From assembly GCF_008124625.1 (NCBI RefSeq), contig NZ_VNHM01000001.1, positions 1 to 64,000 of the forward strand: DNA of 64,000 nt, written 5' to 3'. The notes beneath the pieces are model-generated. The model was given only the letters and a program-made list of their open reading frames with translations. It was not told where the DNA came from and did not search any database. Origin of the DNA: Desulfallas thermosapovorans DSM 6562 (GTDB taxonomy: Bacteria > Bacillota > Desulfotomaculia > Desulfotomaculales > Desulfallaceae). Below, piece after piece: positions 5,269-19,536 of the stretch; within the stretch, counting starts at the first letter, position 1, and every line of letters starts with the position of its first letter. A program made the translations under genes and the position numbers.

Positions 5269-8200
5269 ATGAGTACGAAACCTGATAAAGTTGGTGCTGT
5301 ACTGGTAGTTGGCTCAGGTATCGCAGGTATACAGGCATCGCTTGATTTGGCGGAGTCAGGGTACTATGTGTACCTGGTTGAGAAAAGCCCCGCCATAGGC
5401 GGTACTATGCCTATGCTGGACAAAACCTTCCCCACCAACGATTGCTCTATGTGCATCCTGTCTCCCAAGCTGGTTGACTGTGGGAGACACTTGAATGTTA
5501 ACACCATTACCAATGCTGAAGTAATGGATATTCAAGGCGAGCCAGGTAATTTTAAAGTTACCATCAACCAAAAGGCACGTTTTGTAGACCCGGAGAAATG
5601 TACCGGTTGCGGGTCATGTGCCGAAGAATGCCCGGTTAAAGTACCGGATGAATTCAACCAGGGGCTGAACAAACGCAAAGCCATTTACAAGCTTTATGCC
5701 CAAGCCTATCCCAATGCTTACGCCATTGACCCCACCAGGTGTTTAAAAATTAAGAAGCCTAAAGCATGTGGTAAATGTTTGGAAGTTTGCCAGGCCCAAG
5801 CTATTGACCACACCATGACCGACAAAACTATGGAAATTGAAGTCGGTTCAATCATTCTTTGTCCCGGCTTTGAAAAATTCGATGTGGGAAAACTGGAATA
5901 CTACGGCTATGGCAAGCTTCCCAACGTAGTGAGCAGCTTGGAATTTGAGCGTATTTTGAGCGCATCCGGGCCATTCGGCGGCCACCTGCAGCGGCCTTCG
6001 GACGGCAAAGAACCCCAAAAGATTGCCTGGATTCAGTGCGTTGGTTCCCGTAACTGCCGCATTGAGCACGGTTACTGCTCTTCAGTATGCTGCATGTACG
6101 CCATTAAGGAAGCCGTGATTGCCAAAGAACACTCTCATTACCCGCTGGATACGGCTATTTTCTATATGGATATGCGTACTTACGGCAAAGATTTTGAAAA
6201 GTATTATGATAAAGCCAAATTGGAAAACGGCGTGCGGTTTATCCGTTCCAGGATATACGAGATTGTTGATGCCAATGATGGCACCGGCAACTGTCGTATC
6301 CGTTATGCCAACGAGGACGGCACCATTTCTTATGAAGATTTCGACCTGGTGGTACTGTCCCTCGGCTTGGAACCAGCCTCCGATATGGTGGAACTGGCCG
6401 GAAAACTGGGTGTGGAATTAAATAATTTTAATTTCTGTCAACCCACTGCATTAACCGGCGTTGGCACTAACAAGCCCGGAATATTTGTAGCCGGAGCCTT
6501 CAGCGGCCCGCGGGATATTCCGGAAACTGTAATGCAGGCCAGCGCAGCGGCTGCGGATTCGGCTGCAGATCTAGCCCAAGCGCGCGGCACATTGACCAAG
6601 GTTAAGGAATACCCGGCTGAAAAGGATGTCGCCGGTGAAATAATTCGTACCGGTGTATTCGTGTGCCATTGTGGTATCAATATCGGCAGTGTAGTTAATG
6701 TACCTGAAGTGGTGAAATACGCCAAAACCCTACCGGGAGTGGCTTTTGCCGCTGAAAAACTTTATGCTTGCTCGCAAGATACATCGGCTCAAATAAAAGA
6801 AGCCATCGCCGAGTATGGTCTGAACAGAATAGTAGTTGCTTCCTGTAGTCCCCGGACTCACGAACCTATGTTCCAGGAAACACTAAAAGAGGCCGGCCTT
6901 AACCCCAACCTGTTCGAAATGGCCAATATTCGTGACCAGTGTTCTTGGGTGCATATGCATGAACCCGAAAAAGCTACCGCCAAAGCCAAAGACCTGGTTA
7001 AAATGGCTGTAGCTAAAGCTGCATTACTGGAACCCATCAGCTCTGTAAGTCTGGACATGAATCATGACGCACTAGTTATCGGTGGCGGCGTATCCGGTAT
7101 GACCAGCGCTATTAACCTTTCCAAACAGGGATACAAAGTATACCTGGTAGAAAAGGCTGATGTACTGGGCGGTATAGCCAACCGCATCCGCTACGGAATG
7201 ACCGGTGAAGATATATCTGTATTTGTCAGTGAATTAATCAACCAGGTACAGGCTGACGAAAAAATTACCGTTTATACCGGTGCTGAAATTACCAATGTTC
7301 AGGGTTTTGTAGGTAATTTTGAAACCACCATCAGCAGCGGTGAGGTAATTAAGCATGGTGTTACCATCATCGCCACCGGTGCTGAAGAATATAAACCCAA
7401 TGAATACCTGTACGGGCAAAATGACCGTGTTATGACACTTTTGGAACTGGAAGGCTTACTGGCTGATGGCGACAGCAAGGTGAAAGACGCAAAGAATATT
7501 GTGTTCATCCAGTGTGTTGGCAGCAGAGACGCCGAGCGCCCGTACTGCAGCAGGATTTGCTGCACCAAATCCATTAAACAGGCACTTAAAGTAAAGGAAG
7601 TAAATCCTGAAGCCAATGTTTTCATTTTATACCGTGACATCAGAACATATGGTTTTTATGAGGAAATGTACCGTGAAGCTCGCAACAAGGGCGTTATCTT
7701 TATCCGTTACTCGGCGGATAACAAACCGGTTGTTGAAGCAGTTGACAACAGCATAAAAGTTACCGTAACCGACCACGTGCTGGGCGTACCGGTGGAAATT
7801 GACGCTGACTTAGTAGGCCTGGCTGCTGCCATTGTATCAGCCAAGGATACAAACAGCAAATTAAGCCAGTTCTATAAAGTGCCCCTTAACCAGGAAGGTT
7901 TCTTCCTTGAAGCACATATGAAACTACGCCCTGTGGATTTCGGTACCGACGGCGTATTTATGTGCGGCTTGGCCCACGGGCCCAAAAACCTGGAAGAAAA
8001 TATCAGCCAGGCCAAAGCTGCCGTTGGACGTGCCTGTACCGTACTGGCCAAGAACTCCATTTCCGTGGAAGGTAAATGTGCCTTTGTCAATAAGAAAAAA
8101 TGCGCCGGTTGTGGTGAGTGCGAATCAGTTTGCCCGGCCAAGGCTGTGCAAGTTGATCAGGCAGAGAAAGTCGCTGTTGTTAACGAAGCTCTGTGTAAAG

Positions 8201-8295
8201 GGTGCGGTGCCTGTGCCTCCTCTTGCCGTTGTGGAGCAATAAACGTCAAGGGTTGCACCAACCAACAATTAGTAGCTATGTTAAACGCGCTATAG
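5269..8295 (+). CDS. hdrA: Double-length HdrA (electron-bifurcating flavoprotein)
   Basis: HdrA is the FAD and iron-sulfur hub of heterodisulfide-reductase-type complexes, where flavin-based electron bifurcation occurs. This 1008-residue form is a tandem. Residues about 8-40 give a first FAD fold ([29 protein letters not shown]) with a ferredoxin insert ([12 protein letters not shown] near 110; CGKCLEVCQ near 166). From about 460 a second, complete HdrA begins: [19 protein letters not shown] near 524, a second FAD fold [11 protein letters not shown] near 600 and two C-terminal [4Fe-4S] motifs ([12 protein letters not shown] near 945, [11 protein letters not shown] near 975). Classical HdrA is about 650 residues. 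Followed closely by an MvhD-type selenoprotein and Flx-type subunits. Confidence 0.93.
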
Positions 8296-8317
8296 ATGGG
8301 GGAGGGAAATGGATATC

Positions 8318-8758
8318 ATGGAATATGAACCTAAAATTGTGGCATTCTTATGCAACTGGTGTAGTTATGCCGGTGCAGACCTGGCCGGTATAGGTCGTAT
8401 CCAGTACCCGCCCAATATCCGGGTGATACGCATACCCTGTTCCGGAAGGATAAACCCCTTATTTATTATCAAGGCTCTCCGGCACGGTGCGGATGCCGTG
8501 TTAACCTCCGGGTGACACCCCGGTGACTGCCACTATGTTAGTGGCAACATGGTAGCCCGCAGGAAATTTGCCTTATTAAAGGATTTACTGGAATACGTCG
8601 GCTATGATGAAGGAAGAGTTAACTTCTCATGGGTATCTGCGGCCGAAGGTGGTCGTTTTGCTGAGATTGTCAAAAATGTTACTGAAAAAACCAAACAAAT
8701 TGGCCCCAACAAGGGCTTAATTGATAGCGAATCGGGGTGTTGCGGATGCAAAAGCTAG
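8318..8758 (+). CDS. mvhD: MvhD/FlxD-type iron-sulfur subunit, selenoprotein (Sec at UGA 8513)
   Basis: Small [2Fe-2S] protein that passes electrons between HdrA and a partner enzyme. The frame is broken only by TGA at 8513-8515; on both sides the protein is clear Mvh[16 protein letters not shown] at the N-terminus, PCSGRINP in the middle, then [14 protein letters not shown], where relatives have GCHPGDCHY. UGA therefore replaces a conserved Cys. A 7-bp hairpin (8528-8546) starts 12 bases downstream, as in bacterial SECIS elements. Reading UGA as Sec gives 146 residues, a normal family length. ATG 8318 is preferred to ATG 8309, which lies too close to GGGGGAGGG. The stop overlaps the next gene. 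Confidence 0.9.
8528..8546 (+). promoter_or_regulatory. Predicted bacterial SECIS hairpin in mvhD copy 1
   Basis: TGCCACT (8528-8534), loop ATGTT, AGTGGCA (8540-8546): a perfect 7-bp stem beginning 12 bases after the in-frame TGA, with a G and U in the loop about 22 bases from it. Position and form fit SelB-binding SECIS elements, which lie inside the reading frame in bacteria. Confidence 0.75.
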
Positions 8759-9702
8759 CAGATCAAATCAAAGACGCAGCCAAAAAGTTACTGGCCGAAC
8801 AAAAGGTTGACCTGGTTATCGGCTTTGCGGAAGGCAGTCTCCCGCTTCGCGGCACACCGCTTTTCGCCAGGACTCCCGAGGAAGCAGATAAACTGACCTG
8901 GAATTTGGGCTGTGAAAACAACCTGGCCAATTACCTGCGCAAGAGAGAAGGTAAAGTGGCTGTGGTAGCCAAAGGTTGTGACGTTCGTTCCATCGTGGCT
9001 TTAATTAAGGAGAATCAAATTAACCGTGACAACCTTTATATTATTGGTGTTCCCTGCAGCGGTATGATTGACCGTAAAAAAGTAAATGCCATACTGGGCG
9101 GTAAAGAGTTGCTGGAAATTGAAGTGAACGGTGATACCGCTACTTTAAAAGGCAACAATTGCAGTGAAACAGCCAAAGTTGCCGACTTGCTGCACAACTC
9201 CTGCAAGGACTGCCGTTATGGCAACCCAGTTATATACGATGAACTGGTGGGCGAATTGCTGCCGGAAAAAGAAACCGACGATTTTGCTGAAATAAAGAAA
9301 TTTGAATCCAAAACAACCGCACAACGCCGTGCGTTTATGAACAGTGAATTTAGCAAGTGTATCCGTTGCTACGCTTGCCGGAACGCTTGCCCCGTGTGTT
9401 ACTGCGAGGAGTGTTTTGTAGACTGCAACCAGCCGGAATGGATCGGTAAGAGTGCCTTAAACACGGAGGATAATATTCTCTTCCAGGTAGTCAGGGTATT
9501 CCACAGTGCCGGGCGTTGTACCGACTGCGGAGCTTGCGAAAGAGCCTGTCCAATGGGCATCAACTTGCGCCTGTTAACCCGTAAACTGGTTAAAGACGTC
9601 AAAGAATTGTACAACGCCGAAGCCGGGGTTAACATGGATGATAAGGCTGCCCTTGCTACATTCACAGCCGACGACCCAGAACCTTTCTTGGTGAAGGAAT
9701 GA
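8746..9702 (+). CDS. FrhB-like iron-sulfur subunit of the Flx-Hdr module
   Basis: The N-terminal half resembles the F420-hydrogenase beta-subunit (FrhB) fold (GTPLFARTPEEADKLTWNLGCENNLANYL, AVVAKGCDVRSIV, IIGVPCSGM). The C-terminal half is a ferredoxin with CIRCYACRNACPVCYCEEC near residue 203 and CTDCGACERACP near 262. It probably carries electrons between the NAD(P)H flavoprotein and HdrA/MvhD and corresponds to one of the FlxB/FlxC subunits described in Desulfovibrio. ATG 8746 overlaps the end of mvhD and has GGGG nine bases upstream; GTG 8737 is an alternative. Part of an uninterrupted operon. Confidence 0.8.
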   Translation: MQKLADQIKDAAKKLLAEQKVDLVIGFAEGSLPLRGTPLFARTPEEADKLTWNLGCENNLANYLRKREGKVAVVAKGCDVRSIVALIKENQINRDNLYIIGVPCSGMIDRKKVNAILGGKELLEIEVNGDTATLKGNNCSETAKVADLLHNSCKDCRYGNPVIYDELVGELLPEKETDDFAEIKKFESKTTAQRRAFMNSEFSKCIRCYACRNACPVCYCEECFVDCNQPEWIGKSALNTEDNILFQVVRVFHSAGRCTDCGACERACPMGINLRLLTRKLVKDVKELYNAEAGVNMDDKAALATFTADDPEPFLVKE

Positions 9703-9712
9703 GGTGAAACTG

Positions 9713-10732
9713 ATGATAGTAAGCAAAAATGACATACCCAGCTTCCTGGATAAATTAATTGGTGAATATCAAGTTTTTGCCCCTGTGCAAGAAGGCTCTT
9801 ACACATTATTTAAGCAAATTTGTTCCGGTGCGGATGCTGCACTTACGGACGGCAATACCAAACTTCCGGCAAAAGAAATTATTTTCCCGCAGTCTGAAAA
9901 ACTGTTCAGCTATAATGTTACCGCAGAAGGTGCTAAACTGGAATCAATCATAGACGACCGGAAAAAGGTGGTTTTCGGCGTACGTCCCTGTGATGCCAAA
10001 AGCCTTACTTTGCTGGATAACGTTTTTAATAACGATAAATACCAGGACCCCTATTACCTGACTAGACGCGCCAACACCATTTTAGTTGGTATTGGCTGCA
10101 ACAGCCCCGCCAGCACTTGCTTTTGCACTTCGGTGAAGGGTGGTCCCTTTGACACCAAGGGTCTGGATTTGCTGCTGGTGGATATCGGTGACGCATATGT
10201 AGTGGAAGTGGTAACTGAAAAAGGTAAAACACTTATTGATAATGCAGGTTTTGCCTCTGCCTCGGAAGCAGATAAAGCCGCCGCGGCCAAGGCAAAGGAT
10301 GAGGCGCAAGTCACCTGCCAGGTAAATACCGATGGTTTAAAAGAGAAACTTGATGTCAACTTTTATGATCCCATCTGGGAAAAAATCCATGAAAAATGTT
10401 TGGGCTGCGGAGCTTGCACTTATTTATGCCCCACCTGCCATTGCTTTGACATAGTAGACGACGCCGTAGACTGCAATGGTTGCCGGGTGCGCAATTGGGA
10501 TTCCTGCGCATTCCCGCTATTCACTTTGCATGGCTCCGGCCACAACCCGCGTACCAGCAATAAAGAACGCTATCGCAACAGGATCATGCACAAATTCAAG
10601 TATTTCGTTGATAACTTTGGCGAAATAGCTTGCGTCGGTTGCGGTAGGTGCATTAAAAACTGCCCCGTTAATATGGACATCCGGGTGGTACTGGAGGATG
10701 TTAGGGGTTCGGAAGCGAGGTTGGATAGTTAA
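9713..10732 (+). CDS. AsrA-like 4Fe-4S dicluster subunit of the Flx-Hdr module
   Basis: A 339-residue protein of the anaerobic sulfite reductase subunit A / hydrogenase-sulfhydrogenase beta family: an N-terminal domain with VVFGVRPCDAKSLTLLD, then two ferredoxin motifs, CLGCGACTYLCPTCHC near residue 228 and CVGCGRCIKNCP near 308. It would relay electrons from the FAD/NAD(P) subunit encoded next. ATG 9713 follows GAGGTGA at 9701-9707; GTG 9704 is possible. The stop overlaps the ATG of the next gene (TAATG), showing coupling. Without the AsrC siroheme subunit it is unlikely to be a sulfite reductase. Confidence 0.82.
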   Translation: MIVSKNDIPSFLDKLIGEYQVFAPVQEGSYTLFKQICSGADAALTDGNTKLPAKEIIFPQSEKLFSYNVTAEGAKLESIIDDRKKVVFGVRPCDAKSLTLLDNVFNNDKYQDPYYLTRRANTILVGIGCNSPASTCFCTSVKGGPFDTKGLDLLLVDIGDAYVVEVVTEKGKTLIDNAGFASASEADKAAAAKAKDEAQVTCQVNTDGLKEKLDVNFYDPIWEKIHEKCLGCGACTYLCPTCHCFDIVDDAVDCNGCRVRNWDSCAFPLFTLHGSGHNPRTSNKERYRNRIMHKFKYFVDNFGEIACVGCGRCIKNCPVNMDIRVVLEDVRGSEARLDS

Positions 10733-11571
10733 TGAAAAATCCATATCTACCGCTGCCTGTGAAACTGGTGAAGAACTTTACTGAAACAGAAGATAAGCTA
10801 ATCCACACCTTTACTCTACAATTTTTAAGTGAGGAAGACGAAAAGAGTTTTCCTTACATGCCGGGGCAGTTTGCTGAACTGTGTGTGTTCGGCAAAGGTG
10901 AAGCGCCTTTTGGTATAGCCTCTTCGCCCACTGAACCAGGTTTCCTTAAGTTCTCAGTGGCTAAAGTGGGTGTCGTATCTACAGCACTGCACCTTATGGA
11001 AGAGGGAACCATGGTCGGCGTACGCGGACCGCTGGGCAATTATTACCCGGTGGAAGAATTCAAGGGTAAAAACGTGGTCATCATTGGCGGTGGTTTCGCG
11101 TTTACTACTTTGCGCTCACTGGCTACCTATATGCTGCACCCCGACCGCCGCGGTGATTACGGTGATATAACCGTAATTTACGGTGCCAGAAACCCCGGCC
11201 TGTTGCTTTATAAGGAAGAGTTGGCCGCGTGGGAACAAAGCCCGGATATCAATTTAATCACCACCATTGACCGCCCTGTTGAAGGCTGGAATGGCCGGGT
11301 AGGCTTTATCCCCGCTGTGACCGAAGAGGTAGCACCCAGCGCGGAAAATACCTATGCCATTATTTGCGGGCCTCCGGTAATGATTAAATTTACTATGCCG
11401 GTTCTAGAAAAACTTGGTTTTCCTGCGGAAAGAATTATCATGTCTCTTGAAAACCGTATGAAGTGCGGTATTGGTATGTGTGGCAGGTGTAATGTAGGAG
11501 GCAAATACGTCTGCAAGGACGGTCCGGTATTTACCAGAGCTCAGCTTAACGAACTACCGAATGAATATTAA
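10732..11571 (+). CDS. flxA: FlxA/AsrB-like FAD/NAD(P)-binding oxidoreductase subunit
   Basis: Ferredoxin-NADP reductase-type flavoprotein, 279 residues. A beta-barrel FAD domain (MPGQFAEL, PFGIASSP) is followed by a nucleotide-binding domain (VVIIGGGFAFTTLRSL near residue 117) and a C-terminal cysteine cluster MKCGIGMCGRCNVGGKYVCKDGPVF, which binds [2Fe-2S]. Next to HdrA and MvhD it matches FlxA, the NADH-oxidising entry point of FlxABCD-HdrABC, so module 1 probably links NADH, ferredoxin and a disulfide-type acceptor. The same architecture also occurs in AsrB and sulfhydrogenase gamma, but their partners are absent. Confidence 0.83.
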   Translation: MKNPYLPLPVKLVKNFTETEDKLIHTFTLQFLSEEDEKSFPYMPGQFAELCVFGKGEAPFGIASSPTEPGFLKFSVAKVGVVSTALHLMEEGTMVGVRGPLGNYYPVEEFKGKNVVIIGGGFAFTTLRSLATYMLHPDRRGDYGDITVIYGARNPGLLLYKEELAAWEQSPDINLITTIDRPVEGWNGRVGFIPAVTEEVAPSAENTYAIICGPPVMIKFTMPVLEKLGFPAERIIMSLENRMKCGIGMCGRCNVGGKYVCKDGPVFTRAQLNELPNEY

Positions 11572-11600
11572 GAGGCATTAAATCCGGATAAGCATTAAAA

Positions 11601-11637
11601 TATAGCGCCTCTTTACTGCTATTAAAGAGGCGCTATA
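11601..11637 (+). repeat. Perfect 15-bp intercistronic hairpin after flxA
   Basis: TATAGCGCCTCTTTA, loop of 7, then the exact complement TAAAGAGGCGCTATA. No T-run follows. It lies between flxA and the HdrD-like gene and may be a partial terminator or an mRNA stability element setting the ratio of the two parts of the operon. Confidence 0.7.
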
Positions 11638-11692
11638 ACAAATTAAAACTTCAAAACAATTGTATGCCAAGACCAAGAGGGGAGGACCACTA

Positions 11693-12916
11693 ATGGAAGC
11701 TATTAAAGCTGCCGATTTCAACCCCAAGTTCAGGGACGAAGTTGCCGAACTGCTAAAGGGATACGACTTTAGCAACTGCCTGGCCTGCGGTATGTGCACA
11801 GCGGGCTGCCCTTATTCCGACATTCACGAAAACCAGGATCCCCGTAAATTTTTACGCAAAGTGCTGCTGGGCATGAAGGATGCAGTATATGCCGACCCGT
11901 ACATCTGGTATTGCACCATGTGTGAGCGTTGCACCATCGAATGCCCCATGAACGTAAACATAGCGGCCTTGGTACGGTCATTGCGCGGCACGTGGGACAA
12001 GGACAAAATCCCCGGTTACTTGCAAACCATTGCCAACGAACATATTGAGTCCGGCAACCAAATGAACGTCAGCCAGGAAGATTACGAAGAAACCCTGGAA
12101 TGGATTGAAGAAGAATTGCAGGAAGAATTGGGCGACCCCAATTACAAGATTCCGCTTAACAAAAAAGGGGCCAAGTATTTCTACGGTTTTAACGCCCGGG
12201 ATATCAAGTACTATCCCAATGAGCTGCAGACTACTTTAAAGCTGTTTTACGTGGCGGGCATTGACTACACCATCAGCACCAAGCGTTGGGACGCCACCAA
12301 CATTGCCCTGTTTACGGGACAAACAGATGACTTCTTGGCTATTTCCATGCCCCTGTGGCAGGAAGTTGCGGATCTGGAATGCGAAGAATTGATAGTCACC
12401 GAGTGTGGGCACGCCTTCCGCTCCATGCGCTGGGGTTACAGAACCTATTGGAAGGGCAAGCAGTACCCCATCCGTCACATTCTTGAGTTGCTTAACGAGC
12501 TGGTCAAGGAAGGTAAAATCAAGCTTGATCCTGATGCCATTACCGAAGTGGTTACCTACCATGACCCGTGCAACACTGCCCGCAAAGAAGGCGTGTATGA
12601 AGCACCCCGCGAATTGCTCAGGAGTTTTGTAAAGAATTTCGTGGACATGAACCCCAATGGCAAAATGAATTATTGCTGTGGTGCCGGTGGCGGCGGTATG
12701 GCCATGCCGGAGTTTAATGAAATTCGTAAAGCCAAAGGTAAGCGCAAAGTAGATCAAGTGGTGGCCACCGGAGCAGAGATCGTCGTCGTACCCTGTCATA
12801 ACTGCATGGACCAGTTTAACGATTTAAACAAATGGTATCCTGAGAAAGCCAAGTCTCCAAACATCCACATGTGCTCATTGATGGAAAGAGCTCTCATTAT
12901 GCCGGAGAAAGAATAA
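11693..12916 (+). CDS. HdrD/DsrK-like iron-sulfur protein (HdrC-HdrB fusion type)
   Basis: An N-terminal ferredoxin domain with two cysteine motifs (CLACGMCTAGCP and CTMCERCTIECP) is followed by a region like the catalytic subunit of heterodisulfide reductase. One complete CCG motif is present: DPCNTAR, then NYCCGAGGGG, then PCHNC. The region where a first CCG motif would sit is degenerate (GQTDDFLAI, VTECGHAFR), so it is closer to DsrK/TmcB types than to two-motif HdrB. It is the likely terminal reductase of module 1; the substrate is unknown. ATG 11693 after GGGGAGGACC is taken as the start; a reading from 11660 has no ribosome site. It could equally serve HdrA copy 2, encoded directly downstream. 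Confidence 0.82.
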   Translation: MEAIKAADFNPKFRDEVAELLKGYDFSNCLACGMCTAGCPYSDIHENQDPRKFLRKVLLGMKDAVYADPYIWYCTMCERCTIECPMNVNIAALVRSLRGTWDKDKIPGYLQTIANEHIESGNQMNVSQEDYEETLEWIEEELQEELGDPNYKIPLNKKGAKYFYGFNARDIKYYPNELQTTLKLFYVAGIDYTISTKRWDATNIALFTGQTDDFLAISMPLWQEVADLECEELIVTECGHAFRSMRWGYRTYWKGKQYPIRHILELLNELVKEGKIKLDPDAITEVVTYHDPCNTARKEGVYEAPRELLRSFVKNFVDMNPNGKMNYCCGAGGGGMAMPEFNEIRKAKGKRKVDQVVATGAEIVVVPCHNCMDQFNDLNKWYPEKAKSPNIHMCSLMERALIMPEKE

Positions 12917-13016
12917 TATAACCCGGTAAAATGCTCGGTGGAAAGTTTTTGCTTTGTTTTGCTTTTGCTGTGTTTTGCCAGGATGGACTCTAAACCGAGA
13001 AGGACGGGTGAAATGC

Positions 13017-16000
13017 ATGAATAAAGATAAAGTAGGAGCCGTAATGGTGGTAGGCGCCGGCATTTCCGGCATCCAAGCATCACTTGACCTTGCAGAGTCC
13101 GGCTATTATGTATATCTCGTGGAGCAGTCACCGGCCATTGGTGGCACAATGCCCAGGCTGGATAAAACATTCCCCACCAACGATTGCTCCATGTGTATCC
13201 TTTCTCCCAAGCTGGTGGAATGTGGGAGACACCTGAACATTGAGAAATACATGCTAACAGATATAGTTGATGTTCAAGGTGAGCCGGGCAATTATAAGGT
13301 AAAACTACGTAAAAAGGCACGTTATATTGATCTGGACAAGTGTACTGGTTGCGGCGAATGCGCCAGCGCCTGCCCGGTGGAAATGCCCAGCGAATTTGAC
13401 GCCGACCTGGGTAGAAGGAAAGCCATTTATAAAATGTATCCCCAGGCCATGCCGGCCGGTTTTTCCATTGAAAAACGCGGTGTTTCCCCCTGTAAGGCTG
13501 CATGCCCGGCAGGAGTTAACGCCCAGGGGTATGTACAGCTTATAAAAGAAGGTAAATTCATTGAATCGTGGCAATTAATTTATAATGACAACCCGCTACC
13601 CGCCATTTGCGGCCGGGTATGCACCCACCCTTGCGAAAGCCAGTGCCATCGAAAAAGTGTTGATAAAGCAGTAAGTATAAGGGAATTAAAAAGAGTAGCC
13701 GCCTCCGTTGCCTATCGCGATCTGGATGCTTTACCGTTGCCGGAAACGGCACCAGCCAACGGCATAAAAGTAGCGGTAATCGGCTCGGGACCGGCAGGTC
13801 TTTCAACAGCTTATCAATTAACTAAAAAAGGCTATGCAGTAACGATTTTTGAAGCTTTACCGGTGGCAGGAGGCATGCTCAGGGTTGGAATACCGGAATA
13901 TCGACTGCCTAAAAAACTAGTTGAACTGGAAATAAACCTGCTGGAAAGAATGGGGGTGGAGATTAAAACCAACACCCCTCTGGGCCAGCAGTTAACCATA
14001 GATGATTTGATGAACCAGGGTTACAAGGCTGTATTTTTAGCCATTGGTGCCCATAAAGGTGCGGTTCTCAACATACCGGGTGAAGAACTTGATGGAGTAA
14101 TACCCGGGGTAGATTTATTGCGAAAAGTTAATTTAGGCGAGCAAGTTAGCCTGGGACCCAAAGTAGCAGTTATAGGCGGTGGTAACACGGCCATGGATGC
14201 TGCCCGTACCGCCCTGCGCTGTGGAGCTCAGGAAGTTACCATCATCTACCGTCGTTCCGAAGCCGAAATAACCGCGGCAAAAGAAGAAATAGAGGAAGCC
14301 AAGGAAGAAGGCATTATCTTTAAGATGATGACCAGTCCCATAGCTGTCCGCGGCCAAAATGGCAGGGCCGTTAAACTGGAATGCATCGAGAATGAACTGG
14401 GTGAACCGGACGAAAGCGGCCGTCGCCGCCCAGTGCCGGTTATAGGCAGTGAATTTTTCATTGACGTGGATAATGTGATTATTGCCATTGGCCAGACTCC
14501 GGAGGTATCCGGATTAAACGATATAACATTATCCAAAAAGAATACCATAGTTGTTGACCCCAAAACACTGGCCACTAATAAACCGGGTGTTTTTGCCGCC
14601 GGCGATGTAGTTACCGGACCGGCCACCGTAGTGGATGCCATAGGGGCAGGTAAAAGGGCTGCATGGTCCATCGATTTATACTTGAGAGGGGAACAAGCTG
14701 CCGGCGATTTTAATACCGCCGCAGACAGGCCTATTGCAGACTTTCCCAAACATGCCCGGGCAGTCATGACCGATACACCCCGGGTAGAGGGGCATTTTAT
14801 AGAGCCCGAAAAGCGCATCACTAATTTTGAAGAAGTGGCTCTTGGTATCAGCGAAAAGGAGGCCCGCCAGGAGGCCGAGCGTTGCTTGAATTGTGCCGTG
14901 TGTTCAGAATGCGGTGAATGCGTAAAAACTTGTATGCGCGAAGCAGTCAATCACGACATGCAAGATGAGGAAATTGAAATACAGGTAGGTTCCATTATTT
15001 TAAGCAGCGGCGCCGAATTGTGCGACCCAACAGATCTTTACTATTTCGGGTATAAAAAGTACCCCAATGTTGTCACCAGTATTGAATTCGAGCGTATATT
15101 AAGCGCTTCAGGGCCCTTTGGCGGGCATCTTGTGCGGCCCTATGACCACCGGGAACCGCGCAAAATTGCCTGGATTCAATGCGTAGGTTCAAGGAATATC
15201 CGCATTAAGCATAACTACTGCTCCTCGGTATGCTGTATGTATGCCATTAAAGAAGCGGTTATTGCCAAAGAGCATAGCGCAGAGCCTTTGGACACCACCA
15301 TTTTTATGATGGATATGCGTTCCTACGGCAAAGACTTTGAAAAATATTATGAACGGGCTAAAAACGAGCATGGTGTTAAATTTAAACGCTCGCGTATTTT
15401 TGAAATAGCTGAAGCACCGGGTGAGAGCAAAAATCCGGTGATCCGATATGCCAACGAGGATGGTACCATTACCACCGAGGAATTTGATATGGTGGTTCTG
15501 TCCATAGGTTTTAAAGCACCCCAAAAGGCTATGGAACTGGGGCAAAAACTGGATGTTACCCTAAACCAGTATGGCTTTGCCGAACTGGCACCCCTTACTG
15601 GCGTAGGTACTTCCCAGCCCGGTATTTACGTGGCCGGCACCTTCTCAGGTCCCAAAGATATCCCCGAGACGGTAATGCAAGCCAGCGCCGCCGCTTCCGC
15701 TGCGGAAAGCCTGCTGGGAGATGTACGGGGTACACTGGTGAAGGAAAGGGTTTTCCCACCTGAGCGGGATGTATCCGGAGAAGAACCCAGGATAGGGGTA
15801 TTTGTATGTAATTGCGGTATTAACATTGGCGGTGTCATCAGTGTTCCCGAAGTTGTTGAAATGGCTAAAAAACTGCCCAATGTTGCTTACGCCGGTGAAT
15901 ACTTATACGCCTGTTCCCAGGACAGCCAGGCTGAAATGAAGAAAATCATAGAAGAAAACAACCTCAACCGGGTGGTTGTGGCTTCTTGCAGCCCCAGAAC

Positions 16001-17438
16001 CCATAAACCGCTATTCCAAGAAACACTGAGGGAAGCCGGTTTAAACCGCTACCTGTTCGAAATGGCCAACATCCGGGACCAATGCTCCTGGGTGCATATG
16101 CATGAACGGGACAAAGTCACCGAAAAGGCCAAAGACCTGGTACGCATGATTGTATCCAAGTCAGCCCTTTTAAAACCCATTAAGCAAGGTCAAGTAGGAG
16201 TTACAAAGTCCGCACTGGTTATTGGAGGCGGCGTTTCAGGTATGACCAACGCTTTAAGCCTGGCCGAACAAGGCTATGCAGTGCATTTGGTGGAAAAAAC
16301 CGCCGAGCTGGGTGGCATGGGCAGGCGCATTAAAAAAGGATTTAAGGGCGAAGACATCAGTACATTTGTAACTGATTTAATCAAACAAGTAAAAGCAAAC
16401 CCGTTAATTAATGTTTATACATCCGTTGAAGTTAAAGAAGTATCTGGATACGTGGGTAATTTCAGCACCGAATTGACTGACAGCCGGGTCATTAAACACG
16501 GTGTCACGGTGATTGCCATAGGCGGGCAAGAATACAAACCCAGTGAATACCTGTACGGTCAGAGCGACAAAGTAATGACCCACCTGGAACTGGAAGAGGC
16601 AATGGCCGAAGGAAAAACCGAGAATGTCAAAAACATAGTGTTGATTAACTGTGTAGGTTCCAGAGAACCCGAACGGCCGTACTGCAGCCGGGTATGCTGT
16701 TCCAAGTCCATTAGTTTGGCCCTTAAAGCCAAGGAGATAAATCCAAACGCCAATGTGTTTGTCCTGTACCGGGATATCCGAACCTATGGGTTCCTGGAAG
16801 AAATCTACGAACAAGCCCGTAGAAAAGGCGTCATATTCATAAGATATAATACCGACAACAAACCGCTGGTGGAAAAGAACGGCGACACCATAAAGGTCAC
16901 GGTGACCGACCATGTGCTTGGAGTACCGGTAATTATTGAAGCCGATTTGGTTGGCCTGGCAGCAGCAATACTGCCCCCCGAGGACAATACCAAACTAAAC
17001 CAACTGTTCAAGGTACCCTTGAATGCAGACGGCTTCTTCCTGGAAGCCCACATGAAACTCCGCCCCGTGGACTTTGCGTCGGAGGGTCTGTTTATGGCCG
17101 GTATTGCCCACGGACCCAAGAACATGGAGGAGAATATTGCCCAAGCCAAGGCCGCCGCTGGACGGGCCGCCACCATTTTAAGTAAAGATCATCTTGAGTC
17201 CCAGGGTGTCATAGCCAAGGTGGATGCCAGTAAGTGCGCAGCTTGCCTTACTTGTGTACGGTTGTGTCCGTTTAACGTACCCCGCGTGAAAAACTACGCC
17301 GCTGAAATTGAGCCCGTACTGTGTCAAGGCTGTGGTACCTGTGCCGGTGAATGCCCCAACAAGGCCATTACACTGCAGGGTTACAGTGACCGCATGTATA
17401 TGAATATGATGAATGGTTTATTAAGGGAGGTGCGTTAA
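13017..17438 (+). CDS. hdrA: HdrA with a nested GltD-type FAD/NAD(P)H domain
   Basis: A 1473-residue relative of the upstream HdrA. Residues 1-150 and about 650-1473 align with it end to end (FAD fold, [36 protein letters not shown], second FAD fold, C-terminal ferredoxin CAACLTCVRLCP and CQGCGTCAGECP). Between them about 490 residues are inserted that form a complete glutamate synthase small-subunit module: GltD Fe-S motifs (CKAACPAG near 158, CGRVCTHPCESQC), FAD motif VIGSGPAGLSTAYQL near 252, NAD(P)H motif VIGGGNTAMDAART near 384, GVFAAGDVVTGP near 523. The insert replaces the second cluster of the first ferredoxin domain. ATG 13017 has GAAGGACGGG upstream. Followed at once by a second Sec-MvhD and metV-metF. 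Confidence 0.92.
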   Translation: MNKDKVGAVMVVGAGISGIQASLDLAESGYYVYLVEQSPAIGGTMPRLDKTFPTNDCSMCILSPKLVECGRHLNIEKYMLTDIVDVQGEPGNYKVKLRKKARYIDLDKCTGCGECASACPVEMPSEFDADLGRRKAIYKMYPQAMPAGFSIEKRGVSPCKAACPAGVNAQGYVQLIKEGKFIESWQLIYNDNPLPAICGRVCTHPCESQCHRKSVDKAVSIRELKRVAASVAYRDLDALPLPETAPANGIKVAVIGSGPAGLSTAYQLTKKGYAVTIFEALPVAGGMLRVGIPEYRLPKKLVELEINLLERMGVEIKTNTPLGQQLTIDDLMNQGYKAVFLAIGAHKGAVLNIPGEELDGVIPGVDLLRKVNLGEQVSLGPKVAVIGGGNTAMDAARTALRCGAQEVTIIYRRSEAEITAAKEEIEEAKEEGIIFKMMTSPIAVRGQNGRAVKLECIENELGEPDESGRRRPVPVIGSEFFIDVDNVIIAIGQTPEVSGLNDITLSKKNTIVVDPKTLATNKPGVFAAGDVVTGPATVVDAIGAGKRAAWSIDLYLRGEQAAGDFNTAADRPIADFPKHARAVMTDTPRVEGHFIEPEKRITNFEEVALGISEKEARQEAERCLNCAVCSECGECVKTCMREAVNHDMQDEEIEIQVGSIILSSGAELCDPTDLYYFGYKKYPNVVTSIEFERILSASGPFGGHLVRPYDHREPRKIAWIQCVGSRNIRIKHNYCSSVCCMYAIKEAVIAKEHSAEPLDTTIFMMDMRSYGKDFEKYYERAKNEHGVKFKRSRIFEIAEAPGESKNPVIRYANEDGTITTEEFDMVVLSIGFKAPQKAMELGQKLDVTLNQYGFAELAPLTGVGTSQPGIYVAGTFSGPKDIPETVMQASAAASAAESLLGDVRGTLVKERVFPPERDVSGEEPRIGVFVCNCGINIGGVISVPEVVEMAKKLPNVAYAGEYLYACSQDSQAEMKKIIEENNLNRVVVASCSPRTHKPLFQETLREAGLNRYLFEMANIRDQCSWVHMHERDKVTEKAKDLVRMIVSKSALLKPIKQGQVGVTKSALVIGGGVSGMTNALSLAEQGYAVHLVEKTAELGGMGRRIKKGFKGEDISTFVTDLIKQVKANPLINVYTSVEVKEVSGYVGNFSTELTDSRVIKHGVTVIAIGGQEYKPSEYLYGQSDKVMTHLELEEAMAEGKTENVKNIVLINCVGSREPERPYCSRVCCSKSISLALKAKEINPNANVFVLYRDIRTYGFLEEIYEQARRKGVIFIRYNTDNKPLVEKNGDTIKVTVTDHVLGVPVIIEADLVGLAAAILPPEDNTKLNQLFKVPLNADGFFLEAHMKLRPVDFASEGLFMAGIAHGPKNMEENIAQAKAAAGRAATILSKDHLESQGVIAKVDASKCAACLTCVRLCPFNVPRVKNYAAEIEPVLCQGCGTCAGECPNKAITLQGYSDRMYMNMMNGLLREVR

Positions 17439-17439
17439 A

Positions 17440-17892
17440 GTGGCCGAATTTGAACCCAAAATCGTAGCCTTTTGCTGCCACTACTGAGCATACTCAGCTG
17501 CGGACCTGGCAGGTTCGATGAGGTTGCAGTATTCACCCAACATCCGGGTGGTGGAAATGCCCTGCTCGGGCACAATTGAACACCGGGTGCTTTTGGAGAC
17601 CTTTGAAAACGGTGCCGACGGTGTTTACGTGGCCGGCTGCATGGAAGGTGATTGCCACTTTTTAAAGGGCAACATCCGCGCTAAAAAACGGGTGCAGGCG
17701 GTGAAAAAAATACTGGATGAAATCGGTTTCGGCAGCGAACGGTTGGATTTCTTCAACCTGCCCGCTTCCGACGGAGGCCGGTTTGCCCAGATTGCCAATG
17801 AAATGACGGAACGCATCCGCCAGCTCGGCCCCAGCCCCTTGAACAAAAACGGGGCCGCTAACCCACAGAAAGAAGGTGGCCAAACAGCATGA
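17440..17892 (+). CDS. mvhD: MvhD-type iron-sulfur subunit, selenoprotein (Sec at UGA 17485)
   Basis: Second MvhD. From GTG 17440, with AGGGAGG just upstream, the first 15 codons read like MvhD up to FCCHY; the sixteenth codon is TGA (17485-17487) and the next codons continue AYSAADLAG, so UGA stands where relatives have the second Cys of the CNWC motif. The later GC-x-x-GDCH motif keeps its Cys, unlike copy 1 where that Cys is Sec. A hairpin lies at 17502-17516. Total 150 residues. The stop overlaps metV. It probably passes electrons from the GltD-HdrA to MetVF or to the HdrD-like protein. A start downstream of the TGA would lose the conserved N-terminus. Confidence 0.88.
17502..17516 (+). 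promoter_or_regulatory. Predicted SECIS hairpin in mvhD copy 2
   Basis: GGACCT, loop GGC, AGGTTC: six pairs with one G-U, beginning 14 bases after the in-frame TGA. An outer CTGC (17498-17501) / GCAG pair can extend it. Weaker than the copy 1 element but in the expected place. Confidence 0.55.
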
Positions 17893-18560
17893 TCGTAGCA
17901 CAACAAAAACCTGTTGAAGATATCGCCCAAATGATTGCCGACTGCAAAAAAGTGTTATTCGTTGGCTGTGCCGGCTGCGTGACGGTTTGCCTGGCCGGTG
18001 GCGAGAAGGAAACCGAAGTGCTGGCCTCGGCCATGCGCATTAAACGCAACCTGGAGAACAACCCCCTGGAAGCTACCACTTTTACCTGCACCAGGCAGTG
18101 CGACCCCGAGTACATCGTACCCCTGGATAACCTGGTGAAGGATGTGGACGCCATTGTATCCCTGGCCTGCGGCGTGGGCGTACAGTACCTGGCCGAGCGG
18201 TTTAAGGATAAGTGGGTGGTGCCCGCCCTTGATACCAAGTTCATCGGCGGCTCAGTAACCCACGGCAACTGGGAGGAAAAGTGCGGATTGTGCGGTGACT
18301 GCATACTACACCGCACCGGCGGTATCTGCCCCATTATCCGCTGTTCCAAGAGCATTTTAAACGGGCCATGCGGTGGCTCACAATACGGCAAATGCGAAGT
18401 GAGCAAAGACGTGGACTGCGCCTGGCAGCTGATTTACGACCGCATGAAAGCGCTGGGCAAGCTTGACAAACTAATGGAATTCCAGCCGCCCAAAGACTGG
18501 TCCAAATCACGAGACGGCGGGCCGCGTAAGGCCATCAGGGAGGATGTGATGATCGATTGA
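17889..18560 (+). CDS. metV: Methylenetetrahydrofolate reductase partner protein MetV
   Basis: Zinc/iron-sulfur partner of MetF found in acetogens and other Wood-Ljungdahl bacteria. It has cysteine pairs in VGCAGCVTVC near residue 28, a CTRQCDPEY segment near 64, and a C-terminal run EKCGLCGDCILHRTGGICPIIRCSKSILNGPCGGS near 130-165, all hallmarks of the MetV / methylene-THF reductase C-terminal domain. ATG 17889 overlaps the end of mvhD, and its own stop overlaps the metF start, so the three are translationally coupled. By analogy with the Moorella MetFV-HdrABC-MvhD complex it should link the HdrA/MvhD electron path to MetF. Confidence 0.93.
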   Translation: MIVAQQKPVEDIAQMIADCKKVLFVGCAGCVTVCLAGGEKETEVLASAMRIKRNLENNPLEATTFTCTRQCDPEYIVPLDNLVKDVDAIVSLACGVGVQYLAERFKDKWVVPALDTKFIGGSVTHGNWEEKCGLCGDCILHRTGGICPIIRCSKSILNGPCGGSQYGKCEVSKDVDCAWQLIYDRMKALGKLDKLMEFQPPKDWSKSRDGGPRKAIREDVMID

Positions 18561-19483
18561 AGAATCTAAGTAAACTTCAACAAATACTGGACAGCGGTCA
18601 ATTTGCGGTAACCGCGGAAATAGGGCCGCCCAAGCATTCTTCCGCCGAAGGTATTCGCCATCACGCCGAAATGATGCGCGATTACGTGGACGCCACCAAC
18701 ATAACCGATAACCAGACAGCCATTGTGCGGTTATCCAGTATAGCGGCCGGTGTTCACGTGTTGAACTGTGGCATAGAGCCCATCGTGCAGATGACCTGCC
18801 GGGACCGTAACCGCATTGCCATGCAGTCCGATTTGATGGGCGCCTACAGCCTGGGTATGCGCAACGTACTCTGTCTTTCCGGCGACCACCAGAAATTCGG
18901 CAACCATCCCACGAGTAAAAACGTGTACGATATAGACTCCATGCAGCTCATTTATTACCTGCGCCGCATGCGGGACGAAAAACTGTTTTTCTCGGGCGAA
19001 GAGATTAAAGAGCACGAGCCCCGTTTCTTCATCGGGGCAGTGGCTAACCCCTTTGCCGACCCCTTTGAATTCCGGGTGGATCGCCTGGAGAAAAAGGTAG
19101 AGGCGGGCGCACAGTTCATCCAAACCCAGTGCATATTTGATATGGAACGTTTTGAACGGTTCATGGAAATGGTACGGGAACGTGGCATTGATGAGAGGGT
19201 ACACATTCTGGCCGGTGTAACCCCCATGAAGAGCTGGCGGGCGGCCAAGTATATCCAAAATAACGTCAGCGGTATGATTGTACCGGACGAACTGGTGGAA
19301 CGCCTGAAAAATGCCGAGGACCCCAAACGCGAAGGCGTGGACATTTGCATCGAGCAAATTAAATATATCAAAGAAAATGTTAGAGGCGTACACGGCGTGC
19401 ACGTAATGGCCATTGCCTGGGAAGAGGTTGTACCCGAAATTGTAGAAAGATCCGGGCTGTACCCCAGGCCTAAGGTCGGTTAA
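18557..19483 (+). CDS. metF: 5,10-Methylenetetrahydrofolate reductase MetF
   Basis: FAD-dependent TIM-barrel enzyme that reduces methylene-THF to methyl-THF, the substrate of AcsE. Family segments seen: TAEIGPPKH near the N-terminus, ATNITDNQTAIVRLS, QMTCRDRNRIAMQSDLMGA, NVLCLSGDH, AQFIQTQCIFD, and GVTPMKSWRAAKYI. It is 308 residues long, the short bacterial form without an NAD(P)H regulatory domain, as expected if electrons arrive via MetV/MvhD/HdrA. The start is TTG 18557, overlapping the metV stop. A terminator follows. Confidence 0.95.
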   Translation: MKNLSKLQQILDSGQFAVTAEIGPPKHSSAEGIRHHAEMMRDYVDATNITDNQTAIVRLSSIAAGVHVLNCGIEPIVQMTCRDRNRIAMQSDLMGAYSLGMRNVLCLSGDHQKFGNHPTSKNVYDIDSMQLIYYLRRMRDEKLFFSGEEIKEHEPRFFIGAVANPFADPFEFRVDRLEKKVEAGAQFIQTQCIFDMERFERFMEMVRERGIDERVHILAGVTPMKSWRAAKYIQNNVSGMIVPDELVERLKNAEDPKREGVDICIEQIKYIKENVRGVHGVHVMAIAWEEVVPEIVERSGLYPRPKVG

Positions 19484-19508
19484 GCTACCAGGTTAATATT
19501 GTTTCCTG

Positions 19509-19536
19509 AAAAAGACCCTCCCCGGAGGGTCTTTTT
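19509..19536 (+). terminator. Rho-independent terminator after metF
   Basis: AAAAAGACCCTC, loop CCCG, GAGGGTCTTTTT with T-run. A strong end to the Hdr-MetVF operon. Confidence 0.92.

Follow-up and report, generated by a model that had tools for sequence, protein, structure and literature searches.

The window analyzed here is a stretch of 64,000 nucleotides from Desulfallas thermosapovorans DSM 6562 (contig NZ_VNHM01000001.1, positions 1 to 64,000), and our subject is a gene in it that encodes a heterodisulfide reductase (Hdr) subunit, HdrA, with a GltD-type domain nested inside it. The open reading frame (ORF) is intact, running on the + strand from an ATG at 13017 to a stop codon ending at 17438, and it lies directly upstream of mvhD, metV and metF. 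With a probability of about 0.68, we read its product as the HdrA subunit of an Hdr-linked (type IV, Moorella-type) methylene-tetrahydrofolate (methylene-THF) reductase, which would be bifurcating and would have an NADP(H) port in the nested NfnB-type domain. The parts of the gene are as follows (TrxR, thioredoxin reductase).

13017..17438, + strand: HdrA-GltD fusion (HdrL-type double HdrA), 1473 residues
13017..13460, + strand: N-terminal half of HdrA TrxR-like domain 1 (FAD GxGxxG at residues 13-18) and first [4Fe-4S] motif C109-C119; collinear with the 1008-residue HdrA and invariant
13461..14876, + strand: inserted NfnB/GltD-type domain, residues about 149-620
13767..13799, + strand: GltD FAD motif KVAVIGSGPAG (251-261)
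14106..14501, + strand: Rossmann subdomain of GltD for NAD(P)H (364-495), a block that four congeneric genomes lack entirely
14247..14255, + strand: YRR motif (411-413), NADP 2'-phosphate site; Moorella has CLE here and a second copy has ALE
14883..14933, + strand: six-cysteine motif (623-639) at the closing end of the insert; four cysteines in the GltD-free HdrA
14934..15731, + strand: second half of TrxR-like domain 1, with bifurcation signature E692 and K745
15780..16202, + strand: HdrA N-terminal-type domain of the second HdrA unit
16203..17201, + strand: TrxR-like domain 2, with E1193 present and S1233 as the K409 equivalent
17202..17396, + strand: C-terminal 2[4Fe-4S] ferredoxin domain

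The preliminary description of this locus held that the protein is collinear with the neighboring 1008-residue HdrA (5269-8295) except for an insert in the first ferredoxin region. Global alignment agrees: collinearity extends up to residue 148 and resumes at about 620, giving an insert of about 470 residues, and outside it identical or similar residues are found across both TrxR-like domains and the C-terminal ferredoxin. The insert sits in the ferredoxin region between the CxxCxxCxxxCP motif CTGCGECASACP (109-120) and the six-cysteine motif CLNCAVCSECGECVKTC (623-639). Pfam places Fer4_20 at 157-232 and Pyr_redox_2 at 251-545, NCBIfam PRK12771 scores above its cut-off over residues 154-660, and residues 153-640 match solved GltD-family chains in the PDB with E values down to 1e-129, the top matches being NfnA of 9n5u and 9bov and StnC (8oh5). 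By sequence, the insert is a member of the NfnB/GltD family. Its FAD motifs (251-261, 285-298 and 529-530) and its Rossmann NAD(P)H motif (387-394) are intact, as had been described, and are invariant or nearly so among relatives; the alignment was inspected for loss of essential FAD or NAD(P)H-binding residues, and none is lost in the window copy. The idea that the GltD domain is a dead insert was rejected for this copy on the same basis, every motif being intact. Calling the domain a complete GltD was nevertheless slightly too strong. Only five of the eight Fe-S ligands of NfnB are kept (C159, C163, C202, C206 and C210), NfnB ligand E117 is replaced by K225, and no counterparts of NfnB Cys39 and Cys42 are found inside the insert. 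The published count for StnC is likewise five of eight. An AlphaFold model of residues 1-920, built with 44 sequences, reached a predicted local distance difference test score of 90.1 and a predicted template modeling score of 0.86. In a Foldseek search its leading matches were NfnABC/Nfn and HdrA structures, with Nfn/Stn and GltD chains aligning over 420-530 columns and HdrA over about 900 alignment columns including gaps.

Could a gltD gene have been joined into hdrA by an assembly or annotation artefact? A true collapsed repeat does adjoin the insert (see below), but the insert falls outside it, and the same open frame recurs in dozens of genomes besides G005, a single-contig genome from the same genus that has it at 91% identity, so that an artefact is vanishingly improbable and an assembly chimera can be set aside. 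Orthologues with 81-84% identity occur in other genera of the family, and 43 ORFs from 42 named public loci align to residues 1-920 in one stretch spanning both junctions; these 42 loci come from Bacillota, Desulfobacterota, Chloroflexota, archaea and others. The full-length order HdrA/GltD/HdrA was found in about 50 of the 113 genomes of the class, by a manual count of listed rows. In-frame stops are flagged in the alignments of some relatives; most such alignments end at the last residues of the query, and the stops are probably the natural stop codon. Two split versions were also seen. At L043:5847-10288 (G028:C145) the HdrA-GltD is divided into two overlapping ORFs within GltD by a frameshift or sequencing error, and a divergent version at L042:4275-9121, on another contig (C20) of the genome analyzed here, likewise consists of two overlapping ORFs, an HdrA N-half with GltD of 1037 residues and an HdrA C-half of 628 residues.

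The choice of nucleotide is best approached through the phosphate-site motif. In NfnB of T. maritima, Y310-R311-R312 hold the NADP phosphate, and DsrL-2, which has YRR, was assigned to NADP(H) while DsrL-1, which lacks it, was assigned to NAD(H), on the kinetics of model proteins and the motif (PMC7596348). The window protein has Y411-R412-R413 where the Moorella protein has C-L-E. Across GltD domains in every locus of the collected set, the HdrA-borne domains show YRR in 56 cases, [CSA]LE or CIE in 35 and another motif in one, and 35 of 37 other GltD-family proteins have YRR. The LE state requires at least five changes on the tree, so the cofactor specificity of HdrA-borne GltD domains has probably switched repeatedly. 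Because YRR is intact here in place of the CLE of NADH-using Moorella, the window copy is predicted, on a good motif basis, to use NADPH rather than NADH.

The genome also contains a second HdrA-GltD, on the 4685-bp contig C33 (G000:C33, L002), and this copy is predicted to use NADH because it has ALE at the phosphate site. The two are related through a repeat.

17014..19535, + strand: collapsed tandem repeat (hdrA end, mvhD, metVF), which C33 overlaps exactly by 95 bp at either end; the full tandem is seen in G005

The first 95 bp of C33 equal window positions 19441-19535 and its last 95 bp equal 17014-17108; because both ends overlap the window exactly, the arrangement is that of a repeat in the assembly graph. 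The C33 segment likely belongs between two copies of the repeat, in the order HdrA(YRR)-R-HdrA(ALE)-R, where R is the hdrA end with mvhD, metV and metF, and about 7 kb appear to be missing from the window assembly after metF. The complete tandem is present in G005, where the two mvhD-metVF copies are 98.1% identical. In the window the collapsed repeat covers the 3' end of the fusion gene and leaves the insert untouched. Identity to the window protein is 66-83% across the host domains of the C33 copy but falls to 35% in its nucleotide subdomain, which has higher identity to the LE-type domains of Moorella (45%) and G017 (48%). Subdomain replacement or strong convergence would explain this divergence.

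It may be objected that the window protein is an ordinary Moorella-type NADH-dependent HdrA, in which YRR does not decide specificity and the port takes NADH. Gene order and architecture are the same as in Moorella, and the sole well-tested member of the group uses NADH. Yet the phosphate site in that member is CLE and not YRR, the YRR motif goes together with use of NADPH in NfnB and DsrL, and a second copy with ALE in the same genome would be redundant if both took NADH only. We consider this reading unlikely.

For the bifurcation signature, residues were mapped onto E356 and K409 of M. thermolithotrophicus HdrA. TrxR-like domain 1 has both, as E692 and K745, which are invariant in an 18-member set. 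TrxR-like domain 2 retains E1193, but the Lys is replaced by S1233 (16713-16715); the metVF-linked copies of the family have S, T, N or Q at this position, and Moorella and most other families have K there. By the E/K criterion, only the flavin of the insert-hosting domain would thus fit a bifurcating HdrA flavin within the 1473-residue chain. The 1008-residue HdrA has intact E/K pairs in both of its TrxR-like domains.

The fusion gene belongs to an apparent operon at 5269-19483, whose other members are listed here.

5269..8295, + strand: second double HdrA, without GltD, 1008 residues; E and K present in both TrxR-like domains
8737..9702, + strand: FdhB/FlxB-like Fe-S protein
9704..10732, + strand: AsrA/sulfhydrogenase-beta (FlxC)-like Fe-S protein
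10732..11571, + strand: AsrB/sulfhydrogenase-gamma (FlxA)-like FAD/NAD reductase
11660..12916, + strand: HdrC-HdrB-like fusion (HdrCB), nearest HmcF/TmcB, with one CCG motif
17518..17892, + strand: MvhD/FlpD
17889..18560, + strand: MetV, 72% to Moorella MetV
18557..19483, + strand: MetF, 70% to Moorella MetF

The order hdrA-mvhD-metV-metF within one operon is that of the Moorella-type (type IV) Hdr-MetVF reductase, and mvhD directly follows the fusion gene, as expected of an HdrL or HdrA-NfnB fusion. HdrA itself carries an FAD and a pyridine-nucleotide site within an mvhD-metV-metF operon, as first described. The cluster is conserved across several families of the class, and each intact metVF-linked copy read in those families has YRR, except for the second tandem copies in the family of the window organism. 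The Moorella-style arrangement, in which HdrB has two CCG motifs and HdrC is a protein of its own, was not found, its place being taken by the HdrCB fusion with one CCG. An HdrC-HdrB fusion has also been published for marine Chloroflexi, and the strict Moorella HdrB/HdrC form is therefore not essential to the type. The three genes at 8737-11571 are presumably Flx-like, an assignment we make from family resemblance. A search of the collected papers for reports combining flx, metV, hdrA and sulfate reduction found none, weak evidence that this link to Flx has not been described before. Since dsrA was found in the genome and the ORFs directly upstream look like components of carbon monoxide dehydrogenase/acetyl-CoA synthase, the most likely host is a sulfate reducer with the Wood-Ljungdahl pathway. 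The fusion protein does not qualify as an Nfn transhydrogenase, for which an NfnA subunit and the full set of eight NfnB Fe-S ligands would be expected. Elsewhere the genome encodes an ordinary NfnAB-like pair, which has YRR (G000:C7:139489-140739, L008).

In the mechanism we propose, the nested NfnB-type domain would be the pyridine-nucleotide port of HdrA. NADPH, bound through YRR, would enter at the GltD FAD, and electrons would travel by way of the insert's Fe-S ligands and the interrupted HdrA ferredoxin to the flavin of TrxR-like domain 1. There they would split, one branch passing via MvhD and HdrCB to MetVF and methylene-THF (-200 mV) and the other to ferredoxin; during oxidation of acetyl units the complex would run in reverse, by confurcation. 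The Flx-like genes and the 1008-residue HdrA may supply an NADH port to the same complex. Of this scheme, the analysis shows the order of genes and domains, the intact motifs, the modeled fold and the conservation; the NADP preference, the route of the electrons, their bifurcation and the union in one complex are inferred. The suggestion that this bifurcating route may be new does not hold, since it has already been proposed for Moorella, except that the cofactor predicted here is NADP(H). A wider version of the idea is a supercomplex of the reductase with two ports (NADH via the Flx-like proteins, NADPH via the HdrA-borne GltD) and tandem HdrA isoforms of opposite specificity arisen by exchange of a 130-residue nucleotide-binding subdomain; we hold it to be possible but doubtful as a whole. 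If it is true, the same MetVF could be coupled to the NADPH pool or to the NADH pool.

Several observations weigh against a bifurcating NADPH-dependent complex, besides the incomplete ligand set of the insert. The Moorella complex showed no coupled NADH-driven reduction of methylene-THF (PMC8760232), and that of Sporomusa ovata gave no co-reduction of ferredoxin or NAD(P) (PMC9430772); because no coupling was shown in either body of work, bifurcation is put forward here conditionally. In addition, four congeneric genomes (G001-G004) have a metVF-adjacent HdrA-GltD that lacks exactly the equivalent of residues 364-495 of the window protein, which make up the NAD(P)H Rossmann subdomain; the FAD halves and the Fe-S cysteines are kept. 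The genes are these.

L040:12984-17060: subdomain-deleted HdrA-GltD
L041:12001-16086: subdomain-deleted HdrA-GltD
L144:3126-7271: subdomain-deleted HdrA-GltD
L147:9429-13577: subdomain-deleted HdrA-GltD

Since these congeners retain the operon despite the loss, the GltD port is, as judged from sequence, dispensable in some lineages. Flx-like genes are present in all four genomes, and perhaps NADH entry via the Flx-like module is the cause. The sequences of the deletion proteins place their origin in the ALE-type copy. The domain has been mobile in another way in G006 (L046:14910-19349), where the upstream HdrA of the cluster is the one that carries it and the HdrA after HdrCB is fragmented; it has therefore moved between HdrA paralogues in that genome.

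These losses also fit a non-bifurcating wire, in which MetVF would exchange electrons with quinones or with Flx/NADH via MvhD and HdrCB and the GltD domain would be auxiliary or vestigial. Membrane or quinone links are favored by the data on S. ovata and T. phaeum, HdrCB resembles HmcF/TmcB, which are subunits of membrane redox complexes, and the bifurcation Lys is lost from TrxR-like domain 2 of this family. However, no residue of the FAD and NAD(P)H motifs is lost from full-length orthologues, and both E and K are kept in TrxR-like domain 1. A simple wire is rather unlikely in our judgment, and we favor the bifurcating reductase with an NADP(H) port. How electrons are supplied and split in Hdr-linked methylene-THF reductases is an open question of Wood-Ljungdahl metabolism, the Moorella complex having no shown physiological coupled reaction. 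This locus and its relatives offer NADP-type, NAD-type and subdomain-deleted HdrA variants beside closely similar MetVF, and such natural variants allow a direct test of which cofactor is used and of whether the GltD port is needed.

Mock and colleagues reportedly found in 2014 that Moorella HdrA made in E. coli is NAD-specific and contains two FAD. Comparison with the literature shows that the architecture is already known, and a claim of novelty for it was rejected (PMC9430772, PMC2702500, PMC9012536). The HdrA of the MetVF-HdrABC-MvhD complex of Moorella thermoacetica has the same published GltD interruption (Kremp et al.; PMC9430772) and is the NADH-oxidizing subunit of the founding complex (PMC8760232). 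The premise that known complexes use separate subunits for pyridine nucleotides is thus wrong, because published HdrAs already carry a GltD/NfnB domain. Eight [4Fe-4S] clusters, three FAD and one NAD(P)H site are predicted for Moorella HdrA (PMC9430772), for which a review table lists two FAD (PMC5861303); the suggestion of up to three FAD sites in such a chain is a prediction. The NADH:benzyl viologen activity of the Moorella protein is 190 U/mg, versus 0.5 U/mg for the GltD-free S. ovata HdrA (PMC9430772). The Moorella copy that we retrieved is collinear over residues 5-1472 with 47% identity, in the gene order hdrC-hdrB-hdrA-mvhD-metV-metF. In both loci GltD lies within the first ferredoxin region of a double HdrA, and mvhD, metV and metF come next. 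Unlike the window locus, Moorella has CLE (with NADH use reported), E/K in both TrxR-like domains, a two-CCG HdrB and a separate HdrC, and neither Flx-like genes nor a second HdrA were seen in the 18 kb examined around its hdrA.

In 2009 the HdrL of Desulfobacterium autotrophicum was already named as a fusion of Hdr with glutamate synthase (PMC2702500); like the window protein, HdrL1-3 of strain HRM2 are such fusions with an NADH site and are followed by mvhD, but HdrL1 adjoins dsrABC and not metVF, and selenocysteine is present in HdrL1 and HdrL3. In ANME-1, an insert resembling NfnB lies within the ferredoxin domain of HdrA9-11, and NADPH has been suggested as the carrier (PMC9012536), but these proteins are archaeal and not clustered with metF. 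NfnB, StnC and NfnABC share the sequence and fold of the insert (PDB 9n5u, 9bov and 8oh5) as well as YRR, and StnC has the same reduced Fe-S ligand set; they are transhydrogenase subunits, whereas the window domain is embedded in HdrA without an NfnA partner. The adjacent FdhB-, AsrA- and AsrB-like genes resemble the FlxABC of FlxABCD-HdrABC, but here they appear to form a single operon together with metVF and the HdrA that carries GltD. What looks new is the predicted NADPH-type variant with its added Flx-like module, second HdrA and HmcF/TmcB-like HdrCB, together with the tandem isoforms of opposite predicted specificity, the natural deletions of the nucleotide subdomain and the restriction of the bifurcation E/K pair to the first HdrA flavin.

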